Source: Leucocoprinus leucothites (lineage: Eukaryota; Basidiomycota; Agaricomycetes; Agaricales; Agaricaceae). Taken from it: DNA of 64,000 nt. Made by a program: the position numbers and the translations under genes. Under the pieces are notes generated by a model. That model saw only the letters and a list, made by a program, of their open reading frames with translations. It searched no databases and was not told the origin of the DNA. The DNA lies in the NCBI GenBank assembly GCA_013368445.1, contig JAACJO010000019.1, positions 434,001 to 498,000 on the forward strand. The letters run 5' to 3'. Shown piece by piece: positions 1 to 58,746 of the stretch; the stretch's first letter is position 1; each line of letters begins with the position of its first letter.

Positions 1-342
1 AGCAACACAGACAGAGATGTCTATGGGTCACTATACTCCCACATCATCAATAACGTTCTCACCGACGAACAAAGAGTTGCACTCAAGAGAGGAGAATGCT
101 TCTTCTGCCACAAGAAAGGACATTTCGCTAAATCTTGTCCGGCAAGGAAGGTTTGGTTTAAGTCAAGAGGAAAGACAAACATGGGATCGAAGCAGATGCA
201 GAAGTCCCAGTCCAAACCGAAACAAGGGAATCGTAGACCTTTCAAGCCTAAAAGGAAAGATCCAGATGCCATGGTTTACGAAATAGAACAAGCTAGTGAT
301 GAAGACGACCCATTTCAAGAATACTCAAATGAAAATTTTTGA
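1..342 (+). CDS. Ty3 Gag C-terminal part (copy 1, cut by window edge)
   Basis: The frame is open from the first base to a TGA at 340-342. It contains a CCHC zinc knuckle (C-x2-C-x4-H-x4-C, CFFCHKKGHFAKSC) followed by a long lysine/arginine-rich tail and an acidic end, the usual layout of a retrotransposon Gag nucleocapsid that binds element RNA. The N-terminal capsid part lies left of the window, but the same protein is seen, with stops, in the second copy at about 5,960-8,181. The last codons GAA AAT TTT TGA contain a -1 frameshift heptamer, and pol continues in the -1 frame. Confidence 0.85.
   Translation, partial: SNTDRDVYGSLYSHIINNVLTDEQRVALKRGECFFCHKKGHFAKSCPARKVWFKSRGKTNMGSKQMQKSQSKPKQGNRRPFKPKRKDPDAMVYEIEQASDEDDPFQEYSNENF
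333..342 (+). promoter_or_regulatory. -1 ribosomal frameshift site, gag to pol (copy 1)
   Basis: The gag-frame codons read GAA AAT TTT TGA, so positions 333-339 form A AAT TTT, a canonical X-XXY-YYZ slippery heptamer, immediately followed by the gag stop. The pol frame is exactly -1 relative to gag and opens at 339 with no ATG of its own. The same 10 bases occur in copy 2 at 8,172-8,181. The mechanism is inferred from the motif and frame relation. Confidence 0.75.
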
Positions 343-3300: not shown

Positions 3301-3749
3301 GGACACCATTCAAAGTAGGAGACCGAGTTTGGTTAGATAACCGAAATCTCCCTTTACCCTATGCTTCTAAGAAGCTTAATCAAAGAAGAGAAGGTCCATT
3401 TACTATTATTAGAAAGACCTCTCCAGTCAACTACGAACTCAAACTACCACAAAAATGGAAGATTCACAATAAGTTCCATGCTTCACTTCTCATGCCAGTA
3501 ACTGAGAACGACGTTTATGGTAAACATAACCCTAAACCACCACCTGTCCTAGTCTCAGGAGAAGAACAATACGAAGTCGAAGCAGTCCTAAACCATAGAA
3601 CTCGCAGACTACGTTCTGGAACAAAAATAGAATACCTAATTCGTTGGAAAGGATACGGACCAACTGAAGACTCATGGGAACCAGAGAAAAATCTTGAAAA
3701 TTCAGAAGAAATAATTCAAGAGTATAAAAACCAACACAATCTCTCTTAA
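339..3749 (+). pseudogene. pol: Ty3/gypsy chromovirus Pol, one in-frame stop (copy 1)
   Basis: This is the polyprotein that copies and integrates the element. In order: retropepsin (LLDSGASGEF, about 450-480), reverse transcriptase with the YMDD box near 1,470, RNase H (IECDASAFATGA, near 1,905), integrase zinc finger (H-x-H...CPICQQ, near 2,490-2,620), the integrase DDE core (SMDL, ISDRDPRF, and the E of TTERYNQE, about 2,705-3,025), a GPF module and a C-terminal chromodomain (EYLIRWKGYG...DSWEPEKNLE, about 3,570-3,730). The only break is TGA at 1,704-1,706, where copy 2 has AGA; otherwise the frame runs over 3.4 kb. The chromodomain places it in the chromovirus clade. Expression would need the frameshift at 333-339. 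Confidence 0.93.
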
Positions 3750-3764
3750 CATTCCTCAGCTTCA

Positions 3765-5114
3765 ATGACTACTTCAGAAGTCAGTGAACAACCAACAGTA
3801 CCAGTCTTTGGAACTATTATTTGCGAATCGCCCTCACCTATTACCCCTCCTACTACACCGACCAACACCATCAACGATGCGAACAAGGTCGAAGAAAGTC
3901 CTGGTCTTGCCTCATCGCAAGAACAAGGCACCAAATCCCCTGCCGGAGATAGTGCAGGCGGAGACACTAGCGGTGAAAACTCTTCACCCTATAAAGAGAA
4001 TGCCACCCTACGACGAGCATTTCTTCGAGAACAGACAGCCGTTGACTTTCTGTCCGCCTACAGCAGCAATCCTAGACTCACTTCATATGTCTACAACATC
4101 GGGAATCGGATTGATGCTCTCGCTTCTGCAAGAAGTGAATACAAGCGTCTCCAGAAAGAAATGGACTTCCATCTTAGTAACCTGGCACGCCATATCCCTA
4201 GGGGTCCCTATACTCAGAACATCGTCCGACGCATCCAACGTACCGACCCGGACAGAGATTACTTCGCTACGCTCAAGCGTCAACAAGCTCCAGAGCGACG
4301 TGCACAGGATTCTGAGCGCGCCTCAGCTGATGACGAAGGAAAAACTTCCCCACCTAGCGTCAAACCTCAACAACGTCATGATGTGGCTACACACAATGCC
4401 ATATTACCGAATACACCCCCTCCAACGCCTACTAACGAGCCTCCTCGAAATACCAATCGAGACGCGACTCGCCCTGGACGTACTAGTCGAACCTGCGACA
4501 TATGTCACGGAATGGGTCATATCAAGACGCTTTGCCCGGGATATCATTGCACCTGGTGCGACACTTTCGCCCCCGGCCATTTCACCAAGTATTGTTCCCG
4601 AAATCCTTATAAAGGAATTGCTCGACGGGATCTACCCCCAGTCGCCCTGGCAGCACTTTCGATTACCGAAGGAGTCGATGCCGCCAAGGCTCTTGCTCTG
4701 CAGTCCATCTCCGGATCTGCCAGAATACAGCCCCGACAGTCCGGTGTACCAACCGGCAATCACGACGCCCCCATCACCGATGCCGTCGGACTTCGATCCG
4801 AACGACATAATCCAACATCCACGGCCGTTAACACCACCTCCCTCGGCCCAACCTACAACCCTACTTTTACGCCGCGACGAGGTCGTAAACCCGCACCACG
4901 AGGAAGACAATATGGCCGTCTCCAGACCTCAGTCCGTTCCTCCCATCCAAACCATCGAGGACGCAGTCCGAGCGGACGTCCCCATCACGGTCAAACTCCT
5001 CGCATCTATGAAGGAGAACGCCCCCTTACACCCCCATACGAAGATGGCAATTACGAATCTCATTACGATGATGAAGCCAACTTCAACATAGACGGTGAAG
5101 GTAATTTACCTTAG
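3765..5114 (+). CDS. Third ORF downstream of pol, double zinc-knuckle protein (copy 1)
   Basis: A 449-residue ORF starts 15 bases after the pol stop and ends about 50 bases before the 3' LTR. It has an N-terminal Ser/Thr/Pro-rich region, a central helical region (about residues 80-150), then two zinc-knuckle-like motifs in tandem near residues 242-280 (C-x2-C-x4-H-x4-C in CDICHGMGHIKTLC, then C-x2-C-x6-H-x4-C), and an Arg/Gly/Pro-rich tail ending in an acidic patch. I do not recognise it as envelope or any named protein. The knuckles suggest nucleic-acid binding, perhaps a second Gag-like protein. A related product occurs before the LTR of E4 (about 55,290). Almost the same stretch is also open in the +1 frame. 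Confidence 0.7.
   Translation: MTTSEVSEQPTVPVFGTIICESPSPITPPTTPTNTINDANKVEESPGLASSQEQGTKSPAGDSAGGDTSGENSSPYKENATLRRAFLREQTAVDFLSAYSSNPRLTSYVYNIGNRIDALASARSEYKRLQKEMDFHLSNLARHIPRGPYTQNIVRRIQRTDPDRDYFATLKRQQAPERRAQDSERASADDEGKTSPPSVKPQQRHDVATHNAILPNTPPPTPTNEPPRNTNRDATRPGRTSRTCDICHGMGHIKTLCPGYHCTWCDTFAPGHFTKYCSRNPYKGIARRDLPPVALAALSITEGVDAAKALALQSISGSARIQPRQSGVPTGNHDAPITDAVGLRSERHNPTSTAVNTTSLGPTYNPTFTPRRGRKPAPRGRQYGRLQTSVRSSHPNHRGRSPSGRPHHGQTPRIYEGERPLTPPYEDGNYESHYDDEANFNIDGEGNLP
3784..5091 (+). CDS. Overlapping ORF in the +1 frame of the third ORF (status uncertain)
   Basis: A 435-residue ORF lies almost entirely inside the 449-residue ORF in a different frame. Its second half is Pro/Ser-rich and looks protein-like (for example LPEYSPDSPVYQP). 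In copy 2 the same frame stays open except for one TGA at about 12,303 and a lost start, so it survives about as well as the zinc-knuckle frame. It may be a true overlapping gene or a by-product of base composition. No domain is recognised. Confidence 0.3.
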   Translation: MNNQQYQSLELLFANRPHLLPLLLHRPTPSTMRTRSKKVLVLPHRKNKAPNPLPEIVQAETLAVKTLHPIKRMPPYDEHFFENRQPLTFCPPTAAILDSLHMSTTSGIGLMLSLLQEVNTSVSRKKWTSILVTWHAISLGVPILRTSSDASNVPTRTEITSLRSSVNKLQSDVHRILSAPQLMTKEKLPHLASNLNNVMMWLHTMPYYRIHPLQRLLTSLLEIPIETRLALDVLVEPATYVTEWVISRRFARDIIAPGATLSPPAISPSIVPEILIKELLDGIYPQSPWQHFRLPKESMPPRLLLCSPSPDLPEYSPDSPVYQPAITTPPSPMPSDFDPNDIIQHPRPLTPPPSAQPTTLLLRRDEVVNPHHEEDNMAVSRPQSVPPIQTIEDAVRADVPITVKLLASMKENAPLHPHTKMAITNLITMMKPTST

Positions 5115-5151
5115 TGACTTAGATAGTTACTAAGATGTGGACATCTTAGCT

Positions 5152-5160
5152 AGGAAAGGG
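5152..5160 (+). promoter_or_regulatory. Polypurine tract before LTR
   Basis: A purine run (aggaaaggg) lies four bases upstream of the LTR start, the expected plus-strand primer of copy 1. The same run precedes the LTR of copy 2 (12,992-13,000). A related aaaaggg-ataa precedes the E4 LTR at 56,005. Confidence 0.65.
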
Positions 5161-5164
5161 ATAA

Positions 5165-5826
5165 TGTTATGTATATTGATTATATCTAGCATTTGTTCTA
5201 TCTATAACACGAAGTCGATATTAGCTTTACTTAAGTAATATCGCAATTATGTTTCTTCTTATTTGTTCTTGTATTTTCTCATTTGTTTTGACTCGTTTAC
5301 TTTGTATGGTTACGACTCGTTATGACTTGTTTGGTTTTGTTTGTATTTTGATGACATGTGATTGTTAAATATAGCGGCGCTATATTTGGACTTATCTTGT
5401 GATCGATCAGATGATCAAAGAAGAACTTCTTTAGAAGAACTTCTAAAGCTTCTTTGACAGATCGCGTCTTATATAGTTTAATTAGCGTTAAGGAAGCTGT
5501 ACGCTTCTCTTCTTTCATTAGAAGCCCTTAGCCCTAGTTAATAATAGATACCGACTTGTATTGTATATAAGTCGTCGACATCTACCAAGGAGAAACATCG
5601 TTTCTACTTGGTTAGGTGGAGACTCAATACGAGCCTTTATCTATACAAAGTCGAATTGAACTTAAGCTCTAAGATCTCAATTACTAAAGTCTTAACTCTA
5701 TAATCGCCGTATTATAACTCTGACTTAGTAAACGACTTTGTCGCTTACCGAGAAGGAGTCCCCTTTGATAAGATCAACTCGATACTTATCGCGCCAGCTT
5801 AGGACCGGGCCGGCGTCACTATAACA
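5165..5826 (+). repeat. LTR shared by the two tandem Ty3 copies (family L1)
   Basis: This 662 bp LTR begins TGTTAT and ends ATAACA. It is the 3' LTR of copy 1 and the 5' LTR of copy 2. Boundaries are fixed by the solo copy at 30,448-31,078, which has the same ends and a perfect 5 bp target duplication. Two TATA-like boxes (near 5,470 and 5,563) are candidate promoters. Downstream I found no convincing tRNA primer-binding site and no self-primer match. Confidence 0.9.
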
Positions 5827-5959
5827 TCCATAGCAACTATAAACTAATTTTCCAACCACGGCAGAATTAAACTGCAAGTGTGATAATTGTCTTAAGGACA
5901 ATTTACCATTTAAGACCATACCAGGTGTCTCTATAGGCACCCATAAACATAGTCCACAA

Positions 5960-8181
5960 CAGACCCAGCAGAGTTTGCAAGACAAGTTGAAATCTTCACA
6001 AGAAGAGAATTTCCAGAGAAATACTATAGTACCTACTATAGTGAAACCTGAGGAACAAGATTCTACAAAAGTAAAGGATCAGGAAGATTCTATTACATCA
6101 AAGAACATGAAGGGAAAGTTGCCTATGTCCCAATCAAGAAAGAACAAGAAGGGATCCTCGAAGCCAAATTTGCCAAATTTGGTCACAAGCAACTTCATAG
6201 AACTGTCAAACAGCAAATCGAAAGAGGAGCTGGTATTGAAGAACTTTGAGATGTTACCCCAGAACAGTACGCTGAAGAAGCAAGAGGACAGCAAACTCAA
6301 TTTCCAGAAACCCCTGCAGAATTTAGCAGGACCATTGAACCAGAACCAATCCTTGACATTACCCTAAGAATCAGAGAAACCTCTCAGGAAAATAATTCAG
6401 AGCCCAGAGTTGACACTCCAAGCCCAGAAGAATCTGAATCTGACAAAGATGACAAAGAAGAAGAAGAAGACAAAGAAGGAACAGATAGTGGAAATAGAAG
6501 CCAACAAGAATCTGAAGGAAATCAAACAGAAGAGGAAGCAGAAGCACTCGCACGGGCAATCAATAATCTCAAACTCAAATCCCCAAAGAAGCCCAGAGTC
6601 GATAGACCCCCTTCTTACTCCTCGAGCCCAGCCTTTGGACATAGCCCAAGGTTCCTCAGTCCCATTACGAACCCTATCCCCTTTAGCTTTACCAATTCCC
6701 CCACCAGTATTGCCAGTACCAGTACCTTACCAACAACCAATCCCAACATTACTACAGCCAGTACCACCATCACCGTACACGCTAACACCCAAACAAAAGG
6801 GAAAGCAAAAGCAGTTGTCACCAACACAGGAGGTTCTTCAAATCGGAGAAGCCCCACACCACCACCACCAAATCCACAAGGAGGACCACCAAGTCCCAGA
6901 GGTAATCCGCCTGGAGGACCAGGAGGACCAGGAGGACCAGGAGGAGGACCACCAAATCCTAATCCAACCCCCCTGCCAAACCCAATGGCACAACCTCAAG
7001 CAGGATTCCAGCTTAAATACCCAAAGCCCAACAGGTTTGATGGCAACCCAAGCTATTACAGACCATGGATAGCCAAAGTCAAACTCTACTTCGACTCATA
7101 TGGTGTCACAGATGACCAATCAAGAATCAACTACACCCTTGGATTACTCGATGGAGCTGCCAAGTTATGGCAACAGGATTACAGACTTAGTCAAGCAACT
7201 GCAGCTACCTAAGCAGGATACACCCCACACACTTTCGATGAGTTCAAGGATGCACTTGAACAGTCATTCGCTCCAACACAACAGAGCTTTGAGGCTGAAA
7301 GAGAGCTCCACTATTATAGACAACAAAACAAATACATCGAAGAATACATCGCCAACTTTTCCGTCCTTGCCTCACATGCAGGACTTACTGACAGCACTTC
7401 TCTCCGATCCTACTTCACTGAAGGACTCAACAATGATGTCAGATTCAAAGCAATTCGAGCTGACCCCCAAACCCTCACAGAGTGGAAAACTGCTGCAAGA
7501 CAAGCATACAAAGTTGTCCAAGAGCAAAGGAGATACCACATTGGAAATTCTAATCCAGGATCTTCAAACAGATCAAGAAAGACCAAAAAGAATAGTAGAT
7601 CATACGGACCTCAACCACGATATAATGACATCCATAGTCAACCCCTACCTAGACCCAGATGATCCGAGTGGGACATGGATATCGACAGAATATCAAGAGG
7701 TATATACTGATTATCAATCGAAGATGATCGGGAAGCAGACAATGGTGGTATATATGAACTTGGAGCAGAGGATGATGATAATCCTGAAGAAGAGGAGAGT
7801 GAAGGAGAAGACATCAACCAAATGTACAATGAAGGACCAAGCAACACAGACAGAGACGTCTATGGTTCACTATACTCCCACATCATCAATAATGTTCTCA
7901 CCGACGAGCAGAGAATCGCACTCAAGAGAGGAGAATGCTTCTTCTGCCACAAGAAAGGACATTTCGCTAAATCTTGTCCAGCAAGGAAGGTTTGGTTTAA
8001 GTCAAGAGGAAAGACAAACATGGGATCAAAGCAGATGCAGAAGTCCCAGTCCAAACCGAAACAAGGGAATCATAGACCTTTCAAGCCTAAAAGGAAAGAT
8101 CCAGACACCATGGTTTACGAAATAGAACAAGCTAGCGATGAAGACGATCCGTTTCAAGAATACTCGAATGAAAATTTTTGA
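5960..8181 (+). pseudogene. gag: Ty3 Gag (copy 2), in-frame stops
   Basis: The gag frame runs to TGA at 8,179-8,181 but holds stops at about 6,050, 6,250, 7,210, 7,660 and 7,710. Visible parts are an N-terminal basic region, an acidic Glu/Asp stretch near 6,430-6,480, a Pro/Gly-rich linker (GGP repeats near 6,900-6,960), a capsid-like domain from about 6,985 (KPNRFDGNPSYYRPWIAKVK, then the TFDEFKDALEQSFAP region), and the CCHC zinc knuckle near 7,940-7,985. The end overlaps pol through the slippery site at 8,172-8,178. The start codon cannot be chosen with confidence. Confidence 0.75.
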
Positions 8182-11100
8182 GTACTCATGAAGATCAGAT
8201 AGATGTCATTGATCTTCAATCAAACAAAGGATTAACAGTACATGTACCAATATTGCTCCATACAACCAGAGCAAAACACAACCTACAAGCACTACTCGAT
8301 TCAGGAGCTAGTGGAGAATTTATTGACCCACAACTAATCGATACCTACAACTTGCCAAAATTCAAAATGAAAAAGGCAATCAAAATCCATAATGCTGATG
8401 GAACACAGAACCTATCAGGAAGTTGTACTCACTACACAAAATTAAAAATAGAACTGAACAACAAGATTGTGACGATCTCTCCAAGATAGTCAAACTTGGA
8501 TCAAACCAACTATTCTTAGGAATCACATGGTTAAAGAGATTCAATCCTGACATTGATTGGCAGAAACTGTCATTAAGTTGGTGAGATGAAAACTCTCACA
8601 CAATCAAATTAACCAAAGCGAAAACTGATTCCATCAATCAGTTGTATTATGAGATCAATGTGAAATCCAACACATCACAACAACTTCACAATTTGGCTAC
8701 TAAACCAAAACGGGAATCAAACCCTGTGAAAGCCATACCAAAGAAATTTCATCAGTTTCTCAAAGTCTTCAACAAAGACGAATCTGAGAAATTACCACCC
8801 AGACGTCCTTGGGATCATAAAATTGAGACTATACCCGAATTTGAACCCAAATGAATGCCAGTTTATCACCTGACACCCCAGGAGAGAACTGAACTTGACA
8901 AGTTTATTTCCGAAAACCTATGAAAGGGATATATTCGGAAATCCAAATCACCTATGGCCTCTTCTTTCTTCTTTGTAGGAAAGAAAGGAGGAGACTTACG
9001 CCCATGTCAAGATTATCGATTCCTTAATAAGAATACGATAAAGAATGCTCACCCAATACCAAGCATATCATGAATAATGGATAAACTCAAAGGATCTAAT
9101 TGGTTTACCAAGTTAGATGTCCGACTCGGATACAATAATGTCCGAATCCATGAAGGACACGAATGGAAAGCCGCATTTCGTACCCCTAATGGGTTATATG
9201 AACCCACAGTCATGTTCTTTGGAATGACAAATTCACCTGCTACTTTCCAATCCATGATGGATCATATATTCAAAGACCTTACTGAGAAAGGCGGAGTTAT
9301 TATCTACATGGATGACATCCTAATCCATGCGAAAACAAAAGAACAACTTGAAAGACTTACTAAACAAGTCTTGAAGATTCTACAACAAAACGAGTTGTAT
9401 TTAAAGACTGAGAAATGCGAATTCGAGAAGCAACGTCTAGAGTATCTCGGAGTTATCATAACCCCTGACTCTATTGAAATGGACCCAATCAAACTGAAGG
9501 GAATTCAGGATTGGCCTGTACCCAAGTCTGTCCGAAATATCAGACAGTTTATTGGTTTCTGCAACTTCTATCGCAAATTCATCCACAACTTCTCAGCTAT
9601 CGCACAACCACTTAATGCATTACTTCGCAAAACAATGAAATTCGAATGGAACCCAGAAGCACAGAAAAGCTTTGAGAAGCTCAAGGAACAATTCCTTAAG
9701 CAACCTATACTCCAAATAGTTGACGAATCAAAGCCATTCGAAATTGAATGTGATGCTTCCGCATTTGCTACCAGTGCAGTATTACTCCAAAGAGATTCAA
9801 ATGGAGATAAGCACCCTGTGGCTTATTACTCACAAACCCTTAACCCTGCGGAACGGAACTACCATGTGTCCAACCAAGAATTCCTTGCTATTATTAGAGC
9901 ACTAAAGGAATAGCAACACTACCTTGAAGGATCAGCACACCCTATCATCATATGGTCTGATCATGAGAACCTCACCAGATGGCGAGAACCACAACAATTA
10001 AATTGAAGACAAGCCAGATGGATGCTATACATGACATGCTTCCATTACTCCATAAAGCACTTGGCTGGAAACAAAAACACTCTTGCTGACGCATTGAGTA
10101 GAAGACCAGACCTAGTCCCAGAAGGGAAAGATAATGAAGATCTTGTTGCGATACCATCAAAAAAATTCATTAACTTCCTTTCTGAGGAAATTAAAGAAGA
10201 AATTAAAAATAAACAAGAGAAGATTGCCCCATCCGAAAGATTCACAGAAGATGATGGCATTTATAAATATCAGGGAAGACATGTGATACCTGAAGATGCC
10301 GAACTAAAAAGAAGACTTCTACAACGTGTACATGATCACGAGACATCAGGACACCCAAGAACAGCCGAAATGTTCTGTAAACTATCTAAATCAGTCTACT
10401 GGCCTGGAATGAACACATATGTTCAGAACTACGTGAAAGGATGCCCTATTTGTCAACAGTACAAAATCAACCGTCATCTGGTTAAACCACTGATGCAACC
10501 GATTAAAGGCCCTTCCTCCACAAGGCCCTTTTCCCAAATATCTATGGATCTCATCACAGATCTACCACCTGACGACGGATATGATTGTATATTGTCCATA
10601 GTGGACCATGGACTTACGAAAGGGATAATCCTAACTCCGACAAAGAAGACAGTAAATGCCGATGGCATTGCTGAAATTCTCATTGACAAAGTATTTTCGA
10701 AATACAGAACACCCAACAAAATAATTTCAGATTGAGATCCATGATTTGCTGCTAAATCAATGCAAAAATTATATGAAAAACTCAATATTACACCAGCCCT
10801 GTCCACAGCATATCATCCACAGACAGATGGTACTACCGAAAGATACAACCAAGAAATTGAGTTTTACTTAGCAGTTTACACATCACAAAATCCAACTATA
10901 TGGAAATGAGCACTTCCAATGATTGAATTCATACACAATACAAAGCCCCATTCTGGAAGAAAACACTCACCATACGAATTAATATTGGGATATAATCCAC
11001 AAGCGTTCATCTCAGACAAAGAGACAGACACACCTTCTATCAATGAGAAGTCCTTATTCTTAGAACAAGTTCGAGAAGCAGCCCTAGAGGCACATGAACG

Positions 11101-11587
11101 AACATGTCTCATGATGGCTCAACAAAAGAACCAACCATGGATGCCATTCAAAGTAGGAGACCGAGTTTGGTTAGATAACCGAAATCTCCCTTTGCCCTAT
11201 GCTTCTAAGAAGCTCAACCAAAGAAGAGAAGGTCCATTTACTATTATTAGAAAGACCTCTCCAGTCAACTACGAACTCAGACTACCACCAAAGTGGAAAA
11301 TTCACAACAAATTCCACACTTCACTTCTCATGCCAGTAACTGAGAACGACATTTATGGGAAACACAACCCTAAACCACCACCTGTTCTTGTCTCAGGAGA
11401 AGAACAATACAAAGTTGAAGCAGTCCTAAATCATAGAACTCGCAGACTACACTCAGGAACAAAAATAGAATACCTAATTTGATGGAAAGGATACAGGCCT
11501 ACCAAAGACTCATGGGAACCAGAGAAAAATCTTGAAAATTCAGAAGAAATAATTCAAGAGTATAAAACTCAACACAATCTCTCCTAA
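8178..11587 (+). pseudogene. pol: Ty3 Pol (copy 2), frameshifted and with many stops
   Basis: The product is co-linear with the Pol of copy 1 (protease, RT with YMDD near 9,310, RNase H, integrase, chromodomain). A one-base deletion near 8,486 shifts the frame, and stops occur near 8,581, 8,852, 8,922, 9,072, 9,911, 10,004, 10,733, 10,907 and 11,480. At least six stops are TGA where copy 1 has CGA, so the damage is mostly C-to-T at CpG. Confidence 0.92.
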
Positions 11588-11602
11588 CATTCCCCAGCTT
11601 CA

Positions 11603-12952
11603 ATGACTACTTCAGAAGTCAGTGAACAACCAGCAGTACTAGTCTTTGGAACTATTATTTGTGAATCACCCTCACCTCTTACCCCTCCTACTATACCGAC
11701 CAACACCATTGACGATGCAAACAAGGTTGAGGAAAGTCCTGGTCTTACCCCATCGCAAGAACAAGGCACCAAATCCCCTGCCGGAGATAGTGCAGGCAGA
11801 GACACTAGTGGTGAAAACCCTTCACCCTATAAAGAGAATGCCACCCTACGACGCACATTTCTTCAAGAACAGACAGCTGTTGACTTTCTGTCCACTTACG
11901 GCAGCAATCCTAGACTCACTTCATATGTCTACAACATCGGGAATTATATTGATGCTCTCACTTCTGCAAGAAGTGAATATAAGCGTCTCCAGGAAGAAAT
12001 GGACTTCCATCTTAGTAACCTGGCATGCCATATCCCTAGGGGTCCCTATACTCAGAACATCGTCCGACGCATCCAATGCACTGACCCGGACGGAGATTAC
12101 TTTGCTACGCTCAAGTGTCAACAAGCTCCAGAGCGACATGCACAGAATTCTGAGCACACCTCAGCTGATGATGAGGAAAAAACTTCCCCACCTAGCATCA
12201 AACCTCAACAACATCATGATGTGGCTACACACAATGCCATATTACCGAGTACACCCCCTCCAATGCCTACTAATGAGCCTCCTCGAAATACCAATCGAGA
12301 CGTGACTCGCCCTGGACGTACTAGTCAAACCTGTGACATATGTCACAGAATGGGTCATATCAAGATGCTTTGCCCAGGATATCATTGCACCTGGTGCAAT
12401 ACTTTTGCCCCTGGCTATTTCACCAAGTATTGTTCCCGAAATCCTTATAAAGGAATTGCTCAACGGGATCTACCCCCAGTCACCCTGGCAGCACTTTCCA
12501 TTACCAAGGGAGTCGATGCCGCCAAGGCTCTTGCTCTGCAGTCCATCACTGAGTCTACCAGAGTACAGCCCTGCCAGTCCGGTGTACCAACCGGTAATCA
12601 TGGCACCCCCATCACTAATGTCGACGGACTTCAATCCGAATGACATAATCCAACATCCACGGCCATTAACACCACCACTCTCGGCCCCACCTACAACCCT
12701 CCTTTTACGCCACAACGAGGCCGTAAACCCACACCACAAGGAAGACAGTATGGTTGTCTCCAGACCTCAGTCCATTCCTCCCATCCAAACCATCGAGGAT
12801 GCAGTCCGAATGGATGTCCCCATCACAGTTGAACTTCTCACATCTATGAAGGAGACCGCCCCCTTACACCCCCATATGAAGATGGCAATTATGAATCTCA
12901 TTATGATGATGAAGCCAACTTCAACATAGATGGTGAAGGTAATTTATCTTAG
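11603..12952 (+). pseudogene. Third ORF (copy 2), broken by stops
   Basis: This is the counterpart of 3,765-5,114, with the same start context, the same tandem zinc knuckles near 12,330-12,440 and the same acidic end before the polypurine tract. It is interrupted by TGA near 12,641 (CGA in copy 1) and again near 12,830. The +1 frame is also mostly open (about 11,646-12,305 and 12,333-12,929). Confidence 0.75.
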
Positions 12953-13002
12953 TGACTTAGATAGTAACTAAGATGTGGACATCTTAGCTAGGAAAGGGAT
13001 AA

Positions 13003-13665
13003 TGTTATGTATATTGATTATATCTAGCATTTGTTCCATCTACAATATGAAGTCGATATTAGCTTTACTTAAGTAATATCACAATTATATTTTCCTCTTA
13101 TTTGTTCTTGTATTTTCTAGTTTGTTTTGACTCATTTACTTTGTCTGGTTACAACTCATTATGACTTGTTTGGTTTTGTTGTATTTTGATAATATGTGAT
13201 TGTTAAATATAGCTGCGCTATATTTGGACTTACCTTGTGATTGATCAGATGATCAAAGAAGAACTTCTTTAGAAGAACTTCTAAAGCTTCTTTGACAGAT
13301 CGTGTCTTATATAGTTTAATTAGCGTTAAGGAAGCTATATGCTTCTCTTCTTTCATTAGAAGCCCTTAGCCCTAGTTAATAATATATACAGACTTGTAAC
13401 GTATATAAGTCGTCGACATCTATCAAGGAGAAACATTGTTTCTACTTGGTTAGGTGGAGACTCAATACGAGCCTTTATCTATACAAAGTCAAATTGAACT
13501 TAAGCCTTAAGATATCAATTACTAGAGTCTTTACTCTTATAATCGCCGTATTATAACTCTGACTTAGTAAATGACTTTGTCGCTTACCAAGAAGGAGTCC
13601 CCTTTGATAAGATCAACTCGATACTTATCGCGCCAGCTTAGGACTGGGCCGGCGTCACTATAACA
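13003..13665 (+). repeat. 3' LTR of Ty3 copy 2 (family L1)
   Basis: A 663 bp LTR, nearly identical to 5,165-5,826, with the same TGTTAT...ATAACA ends and polypurine tract. The next base (13,666) resumes the interrupted gag of E1 on the other strand. Confidence 0.92.
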
Positions 13666-14982
13666 GGTATTGCAATTGTTGTTGCTGTTGCTGCTACTGC
13701 TGTTGTTGTTGTTGTTGCTGCCCTGATTAAAGTTAGATGGTTGTGACAAAGAGCTGTGCTGAGGATTAGGCTGAGGGTTATTTGAGGAGTTGGAGGGTTT
13801 GGATTGCTTGCACTTGGCAAGATCCTTTTCCATGGCACAGGCATGGGCTCATTTGTGATCATGTTCCCAATAGCAACTGTCAATGAGCATAGCCATGCAG
13901 AGCATTTCCTGGAAGGTATCAGGTTTACCCTGTTTGTGGGTGCTGATCAGGTCCTGGATATGATTTGGAAGACCCTTATAGTAGTGATGGCAGAGGACCT
14001 CATCACCCCAGCTGAGCTGTGCAGCATACTTCATAAAGTCAATGTTGTAAGTGGCAATCTTATTGCCCAATTTCATCTGCAGGTTATCAAGAAGTTCAGC
14101 TGCATCTGACTTCAGGTTGGCAACCCCAAAGTGCATGTGGAGCTTGTGGGTAAAAGCATCCCAATACATGATCCAATCATGGAAGACACCTTGCTCCTCC
14201 TGAGTGAGGGCAATCTCAAACCAGTCTAGAGCTACACCAGTGAGGTAGGTCATTGCAAAGTTGACCTTTTGGCTATCCTCCTGTAACTGGGTTGGGTTGG
14301 CACAGAAATAGAGACAACATTGGATGAGGAAGGTGTTGAGCTTGTCTGGGTCTGTTCTGCTGAACGTATCTGGGAGGCAAGCTTTATTGATGGGAGCTGC
14401 ATTAGGTTGAGGATGGTGGTCAAGGTTATCAGCAAGCCAGGATAACACATCAGCTAAGAGACCTTGAAAGTGATCATGATAACAAGGACAAGGTGGAGGA
14501 GCAGGAAGGTCATCAGATGAGGAAGAGGATGAGTTATTGTCATCTGGGTCATTGTTGTTGGGGTCATCAGGATCCTTGGGGCTACTGAGGTGATCTTCAG
14601 TGTCTTCCCAATTGTCATTCTTGTCATCCTGGTGGAGAGGATCAACATAGTCGAGACCATCTCCATCACCCAGTTCTGAAGGACTGGATGGATTCTGATC
14701 AGGTGGCATACTGCCAGGAGGTGCAGGAGTACTAGGAGGACAAGTGTCATGACAGCAAGGCAACAGATGAGTAGGACAAGGGATTTGAGAGGGTTGGGGA
14801 GTTGAAGGCAAATTGGGATTTAGATAATGTGAATGGTGGATATGACTGAGAATATGATTATTTTCTGAGCTGCAAGTAGAGCTTTCAGCCAGGGTAGCAG
14901 GGACAGAGTTGGAGTATTTTGGCTCCTGAGTGGTGGAAGTGGTGGCAGTGGGCTGATGTCTTACTGTAGTACAGGTGTTTGC
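13666..14982 (-). CDS. gag: Ty3 element E1 Gag, cut by the tandem insertion
   Basis: The minus-strand frame starts at ATG 14,982 (MANTCTTVRHQPT) and stays open to the insertion boundary at 13,666. It shows an acidic Asp/Asn/Ser-rich N-terminal half, then a retrotransposon capsid domain (FSRTDPDKLNTFLIQC...ALDWFE...FTHKLHMHFG, about 14,370-14,120), then a poly-Asn/Ser tail encoded by CAA/AAC-type triplets near 13,673-13,730. An upstream in-frame TTG at 15,036 is less likely as the start because it abuts the primer site. The rest of E1 lies left of the window. The intact capsid frame suggests E1 is younger than E2. Confidence 0.82.
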
Positions 14983-15036
14983 CATGACAAAGACAAGAGA
15001 AGGGAGCAGAGGGATGATGCAACAGTAGCAAGGCAA

Positions 15037-32725: not shown

Positions 32726-35223
32726 TTATTCAATGATGATAAATTCACATACGTAGCTCTCCCCAGATTCTGTGGTACTATAAAATGAAAGGTGAGATGC
32801 AGTATTGATATTTTCAAGGAGAAACAACATACACAATGACGATGTCATCTTCCCGTGCCTGACACTTCTCTTCGATGTCAGTGCTCAGGACAAGATGGAA
32901 AGATGCTTTTGTACGAGTCCGGAGCCGAAGATGGATTGAAAGATAGCAGTCAGTGCATCCTGCGTCAGTGAGAAAAGGCTTGACAAAAGTGTGAGGGTCC
33001 CCCTCGTCCCAGATTATCCCTATCTCATCCTTCGTCCCAGGCTTTTCTGAGTGCTCATGATCAACGGAAGCAAAAGTCTTTGCATCCTAGAGTGAAGTGT
33101 ATCAGAATGAATGATTGGGCATGTCCAGGAGGGCTCACCGATGACACAAGCCAACGAATGAAATATGCAAATTCTTTCGCCTTGTCCTCCCACTTGGAGT
33201 AAGTAACGTTGAAGTCAAAGTCCTTCAGCACCTCTATCAATATAGACAGAAAAGATTTGGGCACTCGGGGGAAGGCCCTCCAACAATGGGTGAACGCAAA
33301 CTCGCCCACAGAGTCAAGAATACTTTCGTTCTGAGGCGATGTTATGTCCTCGGACCATGCCAGTTTTGGCAATGTTCGTCGGTCTGGGGAAGTGGTTAAT
33401 CAATGACATCAATAACATAAGTCATTAGAACTACCTGAAGGCTCTTTACAAAAGTGGCTGAGCCACTCGAGACCCCGGGTCGCAACGTAAAGGTGGATTG
33501 CTCCCTCGTCCAAAACAAACTCCCCAGAACGTGTTTTGTCTCTCAGGTAGTCGGAGAAGGATGCGTGGTATATCCGAATCGGCTGGGTGCTAGCCTCAGA
33601 AGCAGGAGGAACAAGAACAACTGAATGTAGACGCTGAAGTGAATGATAAAAGGCGGCTTGATCAAGGCCTAGAAAGTTGGCGTGGATAAGAGCGGTGAGT
33701 CCCTCGTTACCATACAAAGTGAACAGTCCAAGGATACGCTTAGTGGTGGGAAGCGTAGCCTTTGGGATGTCAGATAAAATTTGGGTGTAAAGGAGGTCGA
33801 GGGGGTGAAGAGGGTTGAGGTGACCACTGGGGCCAGTGTGCTCAAGAAATTTGAGGCAGACCTCGAGTTGACCAGAAGGGTTGTCGTACTCCTCGTCGCC
33901 GATGAAGCGGATGATGAATGATGCAAATCCAAGGTGACCCGATGCACGATCCGCAATGAAATAAATATCACCAGGATGCGGCCAGTCGCTTGCAAGCTGG
34001 TCTGGGTATCTTTCTCTGATGTCCGCGAATCCCTTCCTGAGAATGCAGAGTGCATCCTTCCGTGCCTCGTCATCGTCAACTTCCAACTCCGTATGGAGGC
34101 AGATCTTTTGACAGTCTTTACTGGAAAATGCTGACGTGAGATGGGGTTCAGGGCGACTGCAAATCATCCACCGCAGCCGGGAATCTCGGTCCCTCTGTGC
34201 ATGGTGTATGATCATCTCTACAAATTCGCGTTGAGCAGCACGGTCCTTGCATTCATCAAGTCCATCGAGAACAATCAAGAGGGGACGATGAAATAAGGAC
34301 ATAAGAAGCTGTTCAGATAGATGCGATAAGAGCGTAAGAGGTCGATGGGATAGGTCAGGGAGAAAGGGATCACTGATAAGTGCTTCAAATTGGGAACGAC
34401 GACTTTGGTCAAAGATCAGCGGGTCGTCCTTGAATTGTTGGCCAATGATGAGTTTGTATTCCGGGAGGAGCACGGCTAGCTGATAGACCAGAGTGGGAAT
34501 GACGACATTGGGGTTGTCACGATTGTTAGGTCGAGAGAAAAAAAATACACCGCCTAAGAGTTCCGCTTTCTTCAGTTCCTCTGCAACATTCTGTGCAACT
34601 GCGGACTTTCCAACTGCAGCAGGACCCGACAGCCATAATAAGGGATAGATCTCTCCGTTGTTTCGTCCCCATTCCACGATATGGTTACGGAGACTCTGGC
34701 GAGTACCCTCGTCGCACCGTGGAGCATATACTCGCGCTTCAGAGTGGAGCATAGCACCTGGCATTGCTCTTGCTAAGAGTTTCACGACAGCTGCACGCGA
34801 ATATCATCGAACGACATTATTTCAGCTATAACACTACTTTGACTCACCGTCATCTGCTTTTCTCCACCTATCATACTCCTCCGCCTTCCTCGCATCCTCG
34901 GTCTGGCTGAAGCTGATAAAGTTTTCAATGACAAAGTCGTGTGCATTCGTAAAAATATCTATAATGTTCGTCAGATATAGGTCGTTATTCTCGCAATCCT
35001 ACCTCCCCTCACCTTCTTGGGTATTCACAGCGGGGAGACTACGAGCAGGGTCGCGACATTCAGCCTCCTTATGGGGATGGAAATAGATTTTCACCAATTT
35101 CCAAGCCAGGGTGATCATGACAGTTGTAAACAACTGGAGGAGGGAAAACATCATGAGAGAGAAGGGGGAGGAGTACCACGAGGTGGGAGGGAAGGACCAC
35201 CAGGCAGAGCGTTCAACGGACAC
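32726..35223 (-). CDS. NACHT-domain NTPase (STAND family), six exons
   Basis: Model: complement(32,726-32,777; 32,833-33,086; 33,139-33,383; 33,435-34,790; 34,848-34,958; 35,013-35,223), 742 residues, all introns GT-AG of 51-57 nt and all phases consistent. Exon 1 holds a hydrophobic segment (about residues 20-47) that could anchor the protein in a membrane. Exon 3 carries Walker A GPAAVGKS (about residue 165), Walker B LLIVLDGLDE (about 285) and a sensor RWMICSRPEPH, diagnostic of NACHT NTPases. Family members act as NTP-driven switches in non-self recognition and programmed cell death; a role here is inference. No WD40 or ankyrin repeats follow, so the sensor part is short or lost. The C-terminal exons recur, broken, at 41,160-41,515. 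Confidence 0.82.
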
Positions 35224-46592: not shown

Positions 46593-49433
46593 ATGGATAC
46601 ACAGTACAAGTTCCGAGTCCTCATCATCGGAAGGGCAAATGCTGGCAAGACATCTATCTTACAGAGAGTCTGCGACACTATGGAAAGTCCAGTTATTTAC
46701 AGGCAAAGCGACTGGGAGGAAGAGCAGGTAGGGTATCTAAGTGTTGTAAACTCTGCTAGTTTGGGCTAACCACCTGACTAGGGTCCAAAACTCGACCCGT
46801 CCATGAATGTTGGTGATATAGTACCATTTGTTGGTTACTACTGATCCTTGAGCCAGTGTGGTGAACACGAGATTGAGGACGAAATCATTTTCTCCAGTCA
46901 TGACGGTTATGTTTTTCATGATTCCCATGGATTTGAGGAGGGGGTTGAAGAGGAATTGAGGATTGTGCAGAACTTTGTGCAAAAGAAGTCTACAGAAGAG
47001 CAATTGGAAAATAGATTACATGCAATATGGTTCGGAGTTCGGAGTGTTTACAATTGCGACTACTGATGGTCATATTTCAAGGTACTGCATCCCCATGGAT
47101 AACCAATGGCCGGAGCTTGAGTTGAAGCATTTCAAAGATATCTGTCCTGATCAAAATGGTGTGTCAGTATGAAGCATTGCAATAAAGATTAACTCATGAC
47201 CTTGAAGTTCCTGTTATTGTGGTGTTCACGGAATGTGATCAATTCAAGTGGGACATGGAGATGGATTTGGAGGACAGGGATGTCAATGAGCTGCAGGCCA
47301 TGTCTAAGACACAGTTTCAGGAGAACTACCTCTGCCACCTTGATGCTGGAGCAAAGTATGTGCGATTAGAAAGTAAGTTGAGGATTTTTTAAATAGATGT
47401 ATGCTGATGCTTGTTGGTCAGGGATGCACAAGCCAGATGGATGCTGCAAGAGCCTTATTGAAGAGACAGCAAGAGCATTGACACAAGATGTGGTCAACTT
47501 CATGCTTGTAGCAGTGCAGAAGAGCAATCTGGAATTGAGTATCAAGCTAGCTGTTGAACAGTGAGTATGCTTACATAAGAGATGTGGAGTATTATGTGAT
47601 ATTCCCCCAATGCAGTACATATCCATATTTAGAGAGTTCAATGGGAAATATTGTGGAGAAATGTCTGAGGCCATTCCCATATATCTTGGTGGGTGCATCT
47701 GCTCACTCATGTGCCCCAGCTGATATTGCCTGTCCTCCCCTCTCCAGTTGGTGAGTCCCTCTGCTTGTTTGCTCACTTGCCCCTGCTGATGTCACTCATC
47801 CTGCTCTTGCTAGCCTGTGAGGGGGTCTGTTTATTTATTCTGGATTTGCCCCTGCTAACATCACCCATCCTCCACTCTCCAGCCTATGAGTGTCTCTGCT
47901 TGTTTGCTTTAAATTTGCCTCTACTGATGTTGCTCATCACCTACTCTCCAGAATGTGAGTGCCTCTATTTGCTTGCTCTAGACTTGCCTCTGCTGATGTT
48001 GCCCATCCACTGCTCTCTAGCCTGTGAGTGCCACTGCTTAATTGCTCTGGATTTGTCTGGGCTGACATTGTCCATCTACTGTTCTCTAGTCTGTAAGTGC
48101 CTCTACTTGCTTGTTCTGGATTTGCCTAGGCTGACATTGTTGTTCCTCCACTCTTCAGTCAGTGAGTACATCTACTTGCTTGCTCTAGATTTGCCCTACT
48201 GATGTTGCCCATTGCCTACTCTCAAGAATGTGAGTGCCTCTGTTTGCTTGCTCTATATTTGCCCCTACTGATGTTGCCCATCCTCTGCTCTCCAGCTGGT
48301 AAGTGCCTCTGCTTGCCTGCTCTGGATTTGCCCCTGCTGATGTTGCCCATCCTCTGCTCTCTAGCTGGTGAGTGCCTCTATTTGCTTACTCTAGATTTTC
48401 CTGGGCTGACATTGTCACTTCTCCACTCTCCAGTCAGTGAGTGCTTCTACTTGCTTGCTCTGAATCTGCCCTACTGATGTTGCTCATTGCCTACTCTTAA
48501 GAATATGAGTGCCTCTGTTTGCTTGCTTTGGATTTGCCTCTGCTGATATTGCCCATCTTCTGCTTTTCAGCTTGTGAGTGCCTCTGCTTGCTTGCTCTAG
48601 ATTTTCCCCTACTGATGTTGCCCATCCTCTGCTCTCCAGAAAGTGAGTGCCTCTGCTTACTTGCTCTGGATTTGCCCCTGCTGATGTTCCCAATTTTCTG
48701 CTCTCTAGGATGTGAGTGTCTCTGCTTGCTTGCTCTAGATTTGCCCCTGCTAATGTTCCCAATTCTCTGCTCTCCAGGACGTGAGTGCCTCTGCTTGCTT
48801 GCTCTGGATTTGCCCCTGCTGATGTTGCCTATTCTCTGCTCTCCAGGATGTGAGTGCCTCTACTTGCTTGCCATAGATTTGCCCCTGCTAATATTCCCAA
48901 TTCTCTGCTCCCTAGCCTATCTGTGCATCCACTTGTTCACTTGTTTTGCTCTTGCTGAATTCAATATCCAGTGCAACATATTATATCAATGTCAATCACC
49001 AAACAGGTATCACTCTTATATAAAGTCATATCCTCAATCTGCTAATATCTATATCTTCCTAGTTTTCTGGAACTACTGGATTTCATCTTATGATTGGTAT
49101 TTCTGTTTACTCCCCTCAATGCACCTTTTAACTTTGATGTAGCTATTATCATTCTTTTGAAGCAAGCTATTCCTTTATGTTCTTCTGGCTTTTCAGGCCA
49201 GGATACTCTATCCTATGCAGGTTTAGTCTTCCAGGAGTTGAATATTGGATCTAAAATCAGACAACACTTTAACATACCTCTCCAAGACTATTCTGTTAAG
49301 GATTATGTGGACTTTATTATGGGTGTTACAGTTGGTCTACTCTTACTCTATCAAGATAAAATCTAAAATTATTTCTAGCTCTGATCTTCATGCTAGTCTT
49401 ATTAAACTTGGAATAAAGTGGGGTAAAAAATGA
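46593..49433 (+). CDS. G-domain (P-loop GTPase) gene containing a tandem intron array
   Basis: Exons: 46,593-46,727; 46,782-46,808; 46,857-47,029; 47,082-47,158; 47,208-47,372; 47,422-47,560; 47,616-47,688; then micro-exons in the array; 48,972-49,006; 49,063-about 49,330; last exon about 49,372-49,433. Phases agree throughout. G1 is GRANAGKTS (residues 14-22), G3 is HDSHGFE, followed by HAIWYCIPMD, and G4 is TECDQ. These define a GTPase related to AIG1/septin-like P-loop proteins common in agaricomycetes; the C-terminal part (DTLSYAGLVFQELNIG) is typical too. One in-frame TGA near 49,091 (perhaps from TGG) may make this allele non-functional, or lies in an unrecognised intron. Confidence 0.72.
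47689..48971 (+). repeat. Tandem array of 19 intron-like units with 3-nt micro-exons
   Basis: Unit donors lie at 47,689, 47,751, 47,817, 47,886, 47,955, 48,024, 48,093, 48,162, 48,230, 48,299, 48,368, 48,437, 48,505, 48,574, 48,643, 48,712, 48,781, 48,850 and 48,919; the period is 69 bp (68 in two units, 62 and 66 in the first two). Each unit begins GTGAGT or GTAAGT (exceptions: GTGGGT at 47,689, GTGAGG at 47,817, ATGAGT at 47,886 and 48,505, ATCTGT at 48,919), has a branch-type CTGAY or CTAAY about 26-29 nt before the end (CTGAA in the last), and ends in NAG; then three bases (ttg, cct, aat, tct, tca, ctg, ctt, aaa, gat, gac) precede the next donor. The array is in the sense strand of the GTPase gene, entered and left in phase 0. 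Confidence 0.9.
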
Positions 49434-57153: not shown

Positions 57154-58746
57154 CAGTGGCTCAAAAAACTGTCCCAATGTTTTCGCATTTTGGACATATT
57201 TGCTAATACCAGGGCAGATATATGGCCTAGCATCCTGAAAATATTCACACAGGTACCTTGACATATTGGGCGCATATATTCCCATGATCACATGACCTTG
57301 TCCATCAATGAATTAATAATGAATTATCGAAAATATCTACTCATTGGGACAGTTTTTTGACCCTCTGTTATCTACCTACTCAATACTTTGTATGACCTCC
57401 TCTTGCCCTGATAACTGCCTCAATCCTTCTGGGCATGCTTTCTATCAGCCTTTGGCACCTTTCTGCTGGAATCTTATTCCACTCCTCTACTAGCCTCTCC
57501 CACAATTCAAATACTCCCTTGGGTGGTCTTTCATATGCCTTCAGCTGGTCCTTCAGGTAGGTCCAGAGGTGTTCAATGGGATTTAGGTCAGGGGATTGTG
57601 CAGGCCATGGTAGAACTTGAATGTTGTTGTCCACAAACCATTGTTGTCCCAGTTTTGAGGTGTGTTTTGGGTCATTATCCTGCTGGAATATCCTCTCCTC
57701 CTCCTCCATCTCCAACTTTTCAAAGCTTTCCACCACCCCATTGTCCAAAATCTCGCAGTATTGCACTGCATCCATATTCCCTTGAACCTCTATCAGTTTT
57801 CCTACCCCATTCCACCCCATACATCCCCACACCATCATGTTACCACCTCCTCCATGTTTGACAGTAGGGAGAGTGGTCCTATCTGACAGTGGTTCCCCCC
57901 TCTCCTTCCAGGTATACACCTTTCCATCTGACCCAATCCTGTTGATCTTTGTTTCATCTGTCCACAACACCCTCTTCCAGTCCTCCACTGTCCAATTCCT
58001 ATGTTCATGTGCAAAGTCAAGGCGTTCCTCACGATGTCGCTTTTTGAGTAGAGGTCGTTTGATCTTGGTTACAGAGCGAAATCCATTATCCTGAAGGGTA
58101 TTTCTGACAGTTTGGGGTGTGACAGGGTCAGACAGAGTAGAGTTAATGAAAGTTGTAGCCTGGACAGCATTGTCTAGCTTTCCAGAGGTTATTTGGTGAA
58201 TTATTGCTTTTTTATCACGAGGAGAAAGCTTGGAAGGATGTCCTCCCTTGTTGTTTTCCTTGTCCCCATCAACTTCTTTCTTGATCCTCCCAACAGTAGA
58301 CTTTCCTAGACCAGTTTTATGTTCAATCTGGCACAAGGAATAGCCATCTTTGAGAAGAGAAGTGACTTGGGAGTATTGGGTAGAGGAGATAGCTTTCATG
58401 ATGTAGTGGCAGGAAGAAAGACAGTTGTAGCCATCTCAACATGTCAACCAAGGTCACATGATCTTGTTTATTACTCCCACGCCTGCCCTGATGCTCCCCT
58501 GGCATGTTACAAGGTAGATACTGGGAGGCTGACAGGGGGTCAAAAAACTGTCCCAATGAGTAGATATTTTTGATAATTCATTATTAATTCATTGATGGAC
58601 AAGGTCATGTGATCATGGGAATATATGCGCCCAATATGTCAAGGTACCTGTGTGAATATTTTCAGGATGCTAGGCCATATATCTGCCCTGGTATTAGCAA
58701 ATATGTCCAAAATGCGAAAACATTGGGACAGTTTTTTGAGCCACTG
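57154..58746 (-). mobile_element. Complete Tc1-type transposon with 214 bp inverted repeats
   Basis: A 1,593 bp element flanked by TA (57,152-57,153 and 58,747-58,748). Terminal inverted repeats span 57,154-57,367 and 58,533-58,746 and are nearly identical. Each arm itself starts and ends with inverted copies of a 26 bp motif (CAGTGGCTC... outside, CAGAGGGTC... inside, sharing AAAAAACTGTCCCAATG). It encodes an intact transposase. Confidence 0.95.
57380..58399 (-). CDS. Tc1/mariner transposase, intact, DD34E
   Basis: A single uninterrupted 339-residue ORF between the inverted repeats. The N-terminal half has two helix-turn-helix regions (YSLCQIEHKTGLGKSTVGRI near residues 20-40, and the SPRDKKAIIHQI region near 60-75) followed by a Tc1 linker. 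Catalytic residues: Asp in LWTDETK, Asp in IFQQDNDPKHTS, and Glu in SPDLNPIEHLW, with 34 residues between the last two, the Tc1 spacing. Length is typical of the family. It is the only transposase in the window with all key motifs and no stop, so this copy may be active or very recent; it inserted into a decayed host element. Confidence 0.96.
   Translation of the reverse strand: MKAISSTQYSQVTSLLKDGYSLCQIEHKTGLGKSTVGRIKKEVDGDKENNKGGHPSKLSPRDKKAIIHQITSGKLDNAVQATTFINSTLSDPVTPQTVRNTLQDNGFRSVTKIKRPLLKKRHREERLDFAHEHRNWTVEDWKRVLWTDETKINRIGSDGKVYTWKERGEPLSDRTTLPTVKHGGGGNMMVWGCMGWNGVGKLIEVQGNMDAVQYCEILDNGVVESFEKLEMEEEERIFQQDNDPKHTSKLGQQWFVDNNIQVLPWPAQSPDLNPIEHLWTYLKDQLKAYERPPKGVFELWERLVEEWNKIPAERCQRLIESMPRRIEAVIRARGGHTKY

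Follow-up and report, generated by a model that had tools for sequence, protein, structure and literature searches.

We analysed a 64,000 bp window of the Leucocoprinus leucothites genome (Agaricales; 47 Mb in 110 contigs), corresponding to C19:434001-498000. The window contains a P-loop GTPase gene interrupted by a head-to-tail array of introns separated by single codons. Such an array of intron plus codon inside a GTPase gene had been proposed from the bare sequence of the window (hereafter, the original prediction). The proposal was borne out and is extended here by 12 more arrays. What it missed is that 12 other genes share the design, and that the triplets between the introns are the hypervariable part.

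A GTPase gene containing one-codon exons

Junctions within the array were located with a simple rule: AG, three nucleotides, then GT or AT. Other splice features were not part of the rule. The resulting features of the window gene, all on the forward strand, are listed below.

46593..49366, +, whole GTPase gene, ATG at 46593-46595 and stop codon ending at 49366 (exon model and translation; weak, sub-cutoff Pfam GTPase matches)
46593-46727, 46782-46808, 46857-47029, 47082-47158, 47208-47372, 47422-47560 and 47616-47688, +, GTPase exons 1-7 (13-paralog alignment, conserved splice sites)
47689..47747, +, array entry intron, 59 nt, donor GTGGGT (junction cutting)
47748..48849, +, span of 17 one-codon exons of 3 nt each; the first nine start at 47748, 47814, 47883, 47952, 48021, 48090, 48159, 48227 and 48296, the remainder at 48365, 48434, 48502, 48571, 48640, 48709, 48778 and 48847
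47886..47891, +, donor position reading ATGAGT; the preceding exon may be skipped
48505..48510, +, second donor position reading ATGAGT (junction cutting)
48850..48915, +, last full-length array intron, 66 nt (junction cutting)
48916..48922, +, exit exon CCTATCT, 7 nt, phase 0 to phase 1
48923..48971, +, final array intron, 49 nt, donor GTGCAT, acceptor CAG (junction cutting)
48972-49006, 49063-49096 and 49143-49366, +, conserved 3' exons, C-terminal region ending ...YQDKI and stop (exon model)

Upstream of the array the gene has six ordinary introns of 48-55 nt. The array is entered after ...CLRPFPYIL, in phase 0 at 47688, as originally predicted. Tandem Repeats Finder reports a period of 69 with 17.4 copies between 47712 and 48910, in line with the 69 bp repeat first described. 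When 47689-48971 is cut at the junctions, 19 introns result (59, 63, then 65-66 nt including two of 65, and a last of 49). Between these lie 18 exons, 17 of them exactly 3 nt long and the other 7 nt. Sixteen introns of 63-66 nt lie between the 17 one-codon exons, the residues of which are, in order, L P P N P S S N L L S N L K D D D. With every array codon counted, the spliced model encodes 379 amino acids.

The 3' exons of the window gene are in frame only if the 7-nt exon at 48916-48922 adds one extra base. The array is therefore left in phase 1, and not in phase 0 as had been thought. Similarly, free pairing of donors and acceptors leaves the frame intact within the array, as claimed, but not across the 7-nt exon. 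An equivalent 7-nt tail can be read in 13/13 arrays. In eight of these, the last triplet is followed by ATAAGT or ATGAGT, seemingly a broken donor. We considered a genuinely broken last donor in several paralogs and rejected it; a 7-nt exit exon with donor GTGCC or GTGCT accounts for ATAAGT. The donor only appears broken because the 7-nt reading (AG, TCCATAA, GTGCC) is an ordinary extension.

A family of arrays with codon-like triplets

A search with a 45-residue N-terminal query, which may miss distant copies, identified 14 GTPase paralogs in the genome. Arrays were found in 13, with 14-77 junctions each; their introns are mostly 65-66 nt with one-codon exons between. The period is mainly 68 in ten arrays and mainly 69 in three (the window, L009 and L010). 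The longest array (L018, 4032-9200) has 77 junctions and 76 one-codon exons, and all 76 spacings are exactly 68 bp. The 14th paralog, L021 (C30:284500-294400), gave no junction match in 9.9 kb, and a copia-type element cuts its coding part. Thus, very small exons divisible by three, many of them consecutive, occur in 13 genes, with one 7-nt exon in each. They do not make up most of the coding region: array codons supply 17/379 residues in the window gene and up to 76/446 in L018. Eleven of the 13 genes have an intact GTPase part. In all 11, one open frame runs from the ATG across every array codon and the 7-nt exon to reach the conserved C-terminus. Nine share the stop after YQD[NK]I; L010 ends a few residues before that point, and L009 continues beyond it. 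The GTPase frames of L019 and L020 are broken.

We then describe the junctions across the family. A 31-place junction pattern (at most two mismatches) had 334 matches in the genome, compared with none in a reversed control. All 334 fall within the 13 GTPase arrays; hence, with this pattern, near-identical introns in many unrelated genes, as expected of introners, were not found. Two units whose donors differ (GTGAGC in one, from L015; the second is in L020) were passed over by the junction chain and are uncounted, so there are at least 393 triplets in all. The 391 triplets counted comprise 383 one-codon exons and eight that open a 7-nt exon. As an example, the predicted codon string of L015 begins, in genomic order, LWAVDWADDLDWADD.

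The array introns have the GT-AG ends and the donor, branch and acceptor consensus of U2-type introns. Donors (n=383) begin with GT in 380 cases and AT in three; GTGAGT (363) and GTAAGT (14) predominate. A CTRAY branch site is present in 386/391 introns, and in 378 the branch A is exactly 24 nt before the last G. Acceptors (n=391) are CAG in 324 cases, TAG in 65 and AAG in two. Site by site, it is the splice signals that are conserved, and not codon positions, as the original prediction anticipated. Its view that the signals are spared stands, with exceptions; those in the window are two ATGAGT donors and one GTGAGG. Units lie head to tail, 3 nt apart, and nearly every unit has its own complete signals. 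The nesting that defines stwintrons was not seen.

The triplets behave as codons. They are of 29 types and include no stops; 36 would be expected from base composition by position and 9.3 if neighbour dependence is allowed for. For the 98 distinct codon-array combinations, 8.5 stops are expected (P ~1e-4, to be taken as a guide). NAG accounts for 1/188 triplets with a middle A, compared with 81/195 for NNG with another middle base (1/35 and 21/55 among distinct triplets). Avoidance of NAG fits coding triplets, because a second AG close after the acceptor could remove the codon.

Diversity is concentrated at the triplets. For units of each array's commonest intron length, diversity per triplet site is ~0.4-0.75 in the ten tidy arrays. 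The corresponding intron means are 0.03-0.09, with a median of 0. In 7/8 intact period-68 arrays every triplet site is at least as diverse as the most diverse intron site; L015 has one intron site above its least diverse triplet site, and the window array has three. We also compared unit pairs with identical introns (n=375, ten arrays). Their codons differ in 239 pairs, and at all three bases in 156. Within the ten arrays residues differ in 71-87% of pairs, and only 8/1391 same-residue pairs have different codons. Codon usage is correspondingly narrow: D is GAT in 96/97 cases, E is GAA in 46/46, F is TTT in 55/57 and L is TTG in 57/62, and I, T, M, Q and C are absent (0/383). Hence, a small codon vocabulary seems to be maintained and reshuffled. 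Synonymous changes are rare, and therefore the site is not simply mutation-prone; a general mutation hotspot was rejected on this ground.

Codon strings turn over between close paralogs. L016 and L017 lie on one contig, ~197 kb apart. They are 99.05% identical over 3693 bp upstream of the array and 96.8% identical over 2158 bp downstream, and their intron consensus sequences differ at 0/65 sites. The longest common subsequence of their codon strings (23 and 35 codons) is 10, compared with a shuffled mean of 9.8 (standard deviation 0.85). The other pairs examined, L009/L010, L011/L012 and L014/L016, behave in the same way: across the four pairs, flanks are 96-99% identical, intron consensus sequences are the same and strings are no closer than shuffled ones. 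Repeated codon blocks (DWADDL in L015, DPFFSEEL in L018) suggest that several units can be duplicated together.

Variable peptides at the array site in relatives

The G1, G3 and G4 motifs are the signature of P-loop GTPases. All three are present in this family, together with a clear G-domain fold. An AlphaFold2 model of P0018 has a mean pLDDT of 77.8. Residues ~281-335 of this model, mostly at pLDDT 52-65, sit between the GTPase part and well-predicted C-terminal helices. Searching solved structures by sequence gave three weak matches, to Der/EngA. Immunity-related GTPases (a G domain plus the IRG helical domain) give the leading structural matches but are tied with ordinary G domains; membership of that group was considered and not adopted.

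The family is large, with 1219 proteins at E <=0.001 among 7995 scored candidates; most of the best 120 are from Lactarius. Among the matches listed in three protein searches (best 120 each) are 31 jgi/lgn proteins, from contigs of 0.9-3.0 kb. All 31 were classified by rule, and the resulting figures supersede those from 14 hand-picked, hand-trimmed peptides. In 18 proteins, an FPYIW motif is followed by 26-59 variable residues and then the conserved C-terminus, with no translation of introns. Examples of the variable peptide are DDHHHFLLLDGDLLFDDDDFLFLDDDFLFDDLDL (P0011) and YYYDLSDSDDFDLHLHHDDDDLLSDFSSFLSDFDDLDDDDFEPS (P0122). All 18 contigs are shorter than 68 bp per peptide residue, which is too short for an array. 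They are therefore probably cDNA. The composition of the 699 peptide residues correlates with that of the genomic codons (Pearson 0.81); the value for the GTPase part is 0.44. There, I, T, M, Q and C make up 352/1820 residues.

Five of the 13 remaining jgi/lgn proteins enter array-type intron translation. P0073 reads LFEEEGDTFIE then VSGCNGLI, P0153 reads LNLFSSS then VSGCGAVTLR, and P0163 reads VWKDKDFYEDDKDFNEEY (18 residues) then VSGHDALLQF. In P0033 and P0100 the same occurs after 2-4 residues. A loose regular expression found intron-type translation of this kind in 27/138 other proteins, each of the 27 listed under a Lactarius name. Forms such as VSGCDASLRFEPADDACPRLSS would fit a 65-nt intron starting GTGAGT. 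Arrays therefore probably exist in Russulales too, and the partly spliced jgi/lgn proteins link the peptide to the array. In the Lactarius models P0022, P0053, P0063 and P0067, AS[VI] follows the motif (FPY[ILV]W-AS[VI]), which would fit a GC-AG donor (GCAAGT) at array entry.

We also inspected NCBI models fetched for L. leucothites (P0002, P0003, P0004, P0010, P0012 and P0013). All six skip or truncate the array. The model of the window gene, P0012 (D9756_009633, 317 aa), enters the first array intron and stops there; P0002, the protein match to L016, skips the array. Since none of the six contains the segment, a hypervariable part of a large protein family is probably misannotated.

Interpretation, alternatives and setting

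The best interpretation is that each array is a frame-safe exon array that would encode a hypervariable segment residue by residue, in a large mushroom GTPase family. We give this a probability of roughly 0.87. The segment between the GTPase part and the conserved C-terminal part would be written as one codon per 3-nt exon. The near-identical introns of 65-66 nt are probably removed singly, with each tiny exon joined to the growing upstream exon. Once the first intron is out, its small exon would be fused to a normal upstream exon and, therefore, the next donor would be in a normal context. The partly spliced proteins fit removal of introns from 5' to 3' and do not prove that order, because the reading frame stops in the first retained intron. 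In this way, 14-76 single codons would yield a peptide of that many variable residues, and the 7-nt exon would close the array and set the frame of the C-terminus.

The same layout would permit rapid change. Because every unit is an intron plus a whole codon, unequal recombination within identical introns could add, drop, duplicate or reorder single residues with no frameshift. Selection for varied residues would keep the codons different while the introns become homogenised. A stronger version is that the array is a DNA-level device, with codons as exchangeable letters between identical introns and recombination rewriting fast-evolving recognition segments, perhaps for self/non-self discrimination or defence. 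We offer this tentatively, as somewhat less probable than its opposite. An interaction or recognition role for the segment is a guess by analogy with fungal NLRs where, according to PMC12222747, repeats are homogenised and a few sites are hypervariable. Given the fixed vocabulary and the three-base changes beside unchanged introns, we leave open an active, programmed exchange of codons.

Several observations weigh against the exon-array interpretation. The reading frame is also kept if the whole array is skipped. The units are related by duplication, making the P values for stops and for NAG optimistic and guides only. When TAG is left out, distinct triplets show a less marked shortage of stops (4.6 expected, P ~0.009). 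In L009 and L010, three and two intron sites, respectively, vary more than the triplet site that varies least. The scarcity of synonyms could partly reflect splice-site preference, C being rare as the last base of a one-codon exon (3/383). In the relatives, I, T, M, Q and C make up 46/699 peptide residues (18 proteins), and none of the 383 genomic codons. In eight of the 31 jgi/lgn proteins there is no read-through and no intron translation either. The transcript status of these contigs is deduced from their shortness, and the derivation of their peptides from one-codon exons is likewise a deduction. Finally, the window copy itself has irregularities. Its G4 motif is TECD, compared with TKYD in 10/10 other intact paralogs, and 2/17 donors are lost (ATGAGT at 47886 and 48505). 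Its units are as diverged (intron diversity 0.21) as those of the pseudogene L020 (0.195).

The window array is among the least tidy of its family, and 8/16 of its same-residue pairs use different codons. Together with the altered G4 motif, the two ATGAGT donors and the L020-like intron diversity, these synonymous differences indicate that the window copy may be decaying. The tidy paralogs are better subjects for study.

We weighed four other explanations. The array could be a minisatellite within one functional large intron, or could always be skipped, so that its codons are never or rarely in mature mRNA. Preservation of the frame without any array codon and the six NCBI models agree with this. 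However, unread triplets would not be expected to lack stops, avoid NAG and use about one codon per residue. Nearly every unit also retains a donor, branch site and acceptor of its own, and 18 transcript-like proteins have variable peptides at the site. We consider it improbable. For the same reasons, namely the coding appearance of the triplets and the peptides in relatives' transcript-like contigs, the copy-number-neutral minisatellite of the original prediction is not favoured. Alternatively, the one-codon exons may be optional, with splicing of any donor to any acceptor giving each gene a repertoire of peptide isoforms, as has been proposed for schistosome micro-exon genes; isoforms differing by single residues were the other idea in the original prediction. 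Any pairing inside the array preserves the frame and 5/31 jgi/lgn proteins look partly spliced, but near-identical introns offer no obvious means of choice and the long peptides in 18/31 suggest that inclusion is common. This is unlikely, if less so than skipping, and would be a compatible addition to an array that is otherwise read codon by codon.

Two further alternatives are much weaker. If the introns were the product, the array would encode small RNAs, as SNORD115 and SNORD116 are encoded in SNHG14, with the exons as spacers. The introns are tandem and near-identical, and they contain CTGATG, which resembles box motifs. However, none of the three genes searched (the window gene, L018 and L009) had an Rfam match at gathering level. 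At E <=1 there was one minus-strand match (0.7) in the window gene and none in the other two. Folding of two units was no better than that of shuffled sequences (z 1.8 and 0.17), and spacers need not be hypervariable yet stop-free and in frame. On the Rfam results, which cover known families, and on the folding of the two units, small RNAs in the introns were rejected as very improbable. Direct translation as a repetitive protein is the least probable of all, close to negligible. In its favour, the window period of 69 equals 23 codons and one plus-strand frame of L010 (period 69) is open for 309/321 codons. Stop-free minus-strand frames also exist in L009, L012 and L016, and we attribute these to base composition. 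Conversely, the period is 68 in ten of 13 arrays, where the longest stop-free plus-strand run is 34-56 codons. Conservation follows splice signals rather than codon positions, and none of the 31 transcript-like proteins contains a multi-unit translated repeat. In all 13 arrays every plus-strand frame is interrupted, and therefore the repeat is not plainly translated, as the original prediction held. We rejected a directly translated repeat on the basis of period and frame.

The exon arrays can be compared with known systems. Schistosome micro-exon genes (MEGs) are alike in having very small, frame-preserving exons. MEG exons are mostly longer than one codon. The fungal GTPase arrays differ in having one codon per exon, dozens of such exons in succession, and near-identical tandem introns; the variation is seen in DNA, between units and between paralogs. 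According to PMC4350168, most of the MEG coding region lies in tiny symmetrical exons, and alternative splicing of these is said to permit variation in the protein. In the system of PMC11228951, the number and order of motifs in a central hypervariable domain vary between alleles, apparently without error. There, multi-residue coding motifs are shuffled, whereas here a single codon is carried by an intron. In the fungal NLRs het-d and het-e, the highly conserved WD40 repeats are protein; here, the conserved repeat is discarded intron.

Tandem introns have precedents. The original prediction knew of no intron amplified head to tail. This is too broad, since PMC11608373 gives 29 and 48 tandem introns in one transcript of SNHG14, host of SNORD115 and SNORD116. 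The likeness is in the tens of tandem introns, but SNHG14 introns carry the product, as snoRNAs. Introner-like elements and stwintrons are near-identical introns multiplied in fungal genes (PMC4457414, PMC8469720, PMC9024468). Those lie in different genes or are nested in one another; the array introns follow each other at a single site, one codon apart. For tandem one-codon exons, we found no described case in the open-access literature (PMC), subscription papers being outside that scope. Micro-exon genes, tandem introns, multiplied introns and shuffled hypervariable domains are each known; within that literature, no described case unites them as single-codon exons set among homogenised introns.

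To our knowledge, a run of dozens of 3-nt exons would be the finest exon structure known, by a wide margin. If correct, the exon-array interpretation would make these genes an extreme test case for intron handling and ordering by the spliceosome, with 76 one-codon exons flanked by near-identical introns in L018. Introns would also gain a concrete role in evolution, serving as identical arms through which single residues are shuffled with no damage to the frame.

Other features of the window surround the GTPase gene. On the minus strand at 33412-34785, ~12 kb away, is a 458-aa open reading frame (ORF) with NPHP3_N/NACHT domains, which is NLR-like. Retroelement pieces (reverse transcriptase, integrase with chromodomain, Ty3-type capsid) occupy both strands of 339-15036. 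An ORF with DDE_3 and Tc3-type transposase domains lies at 57383-58399 on the minus strand.

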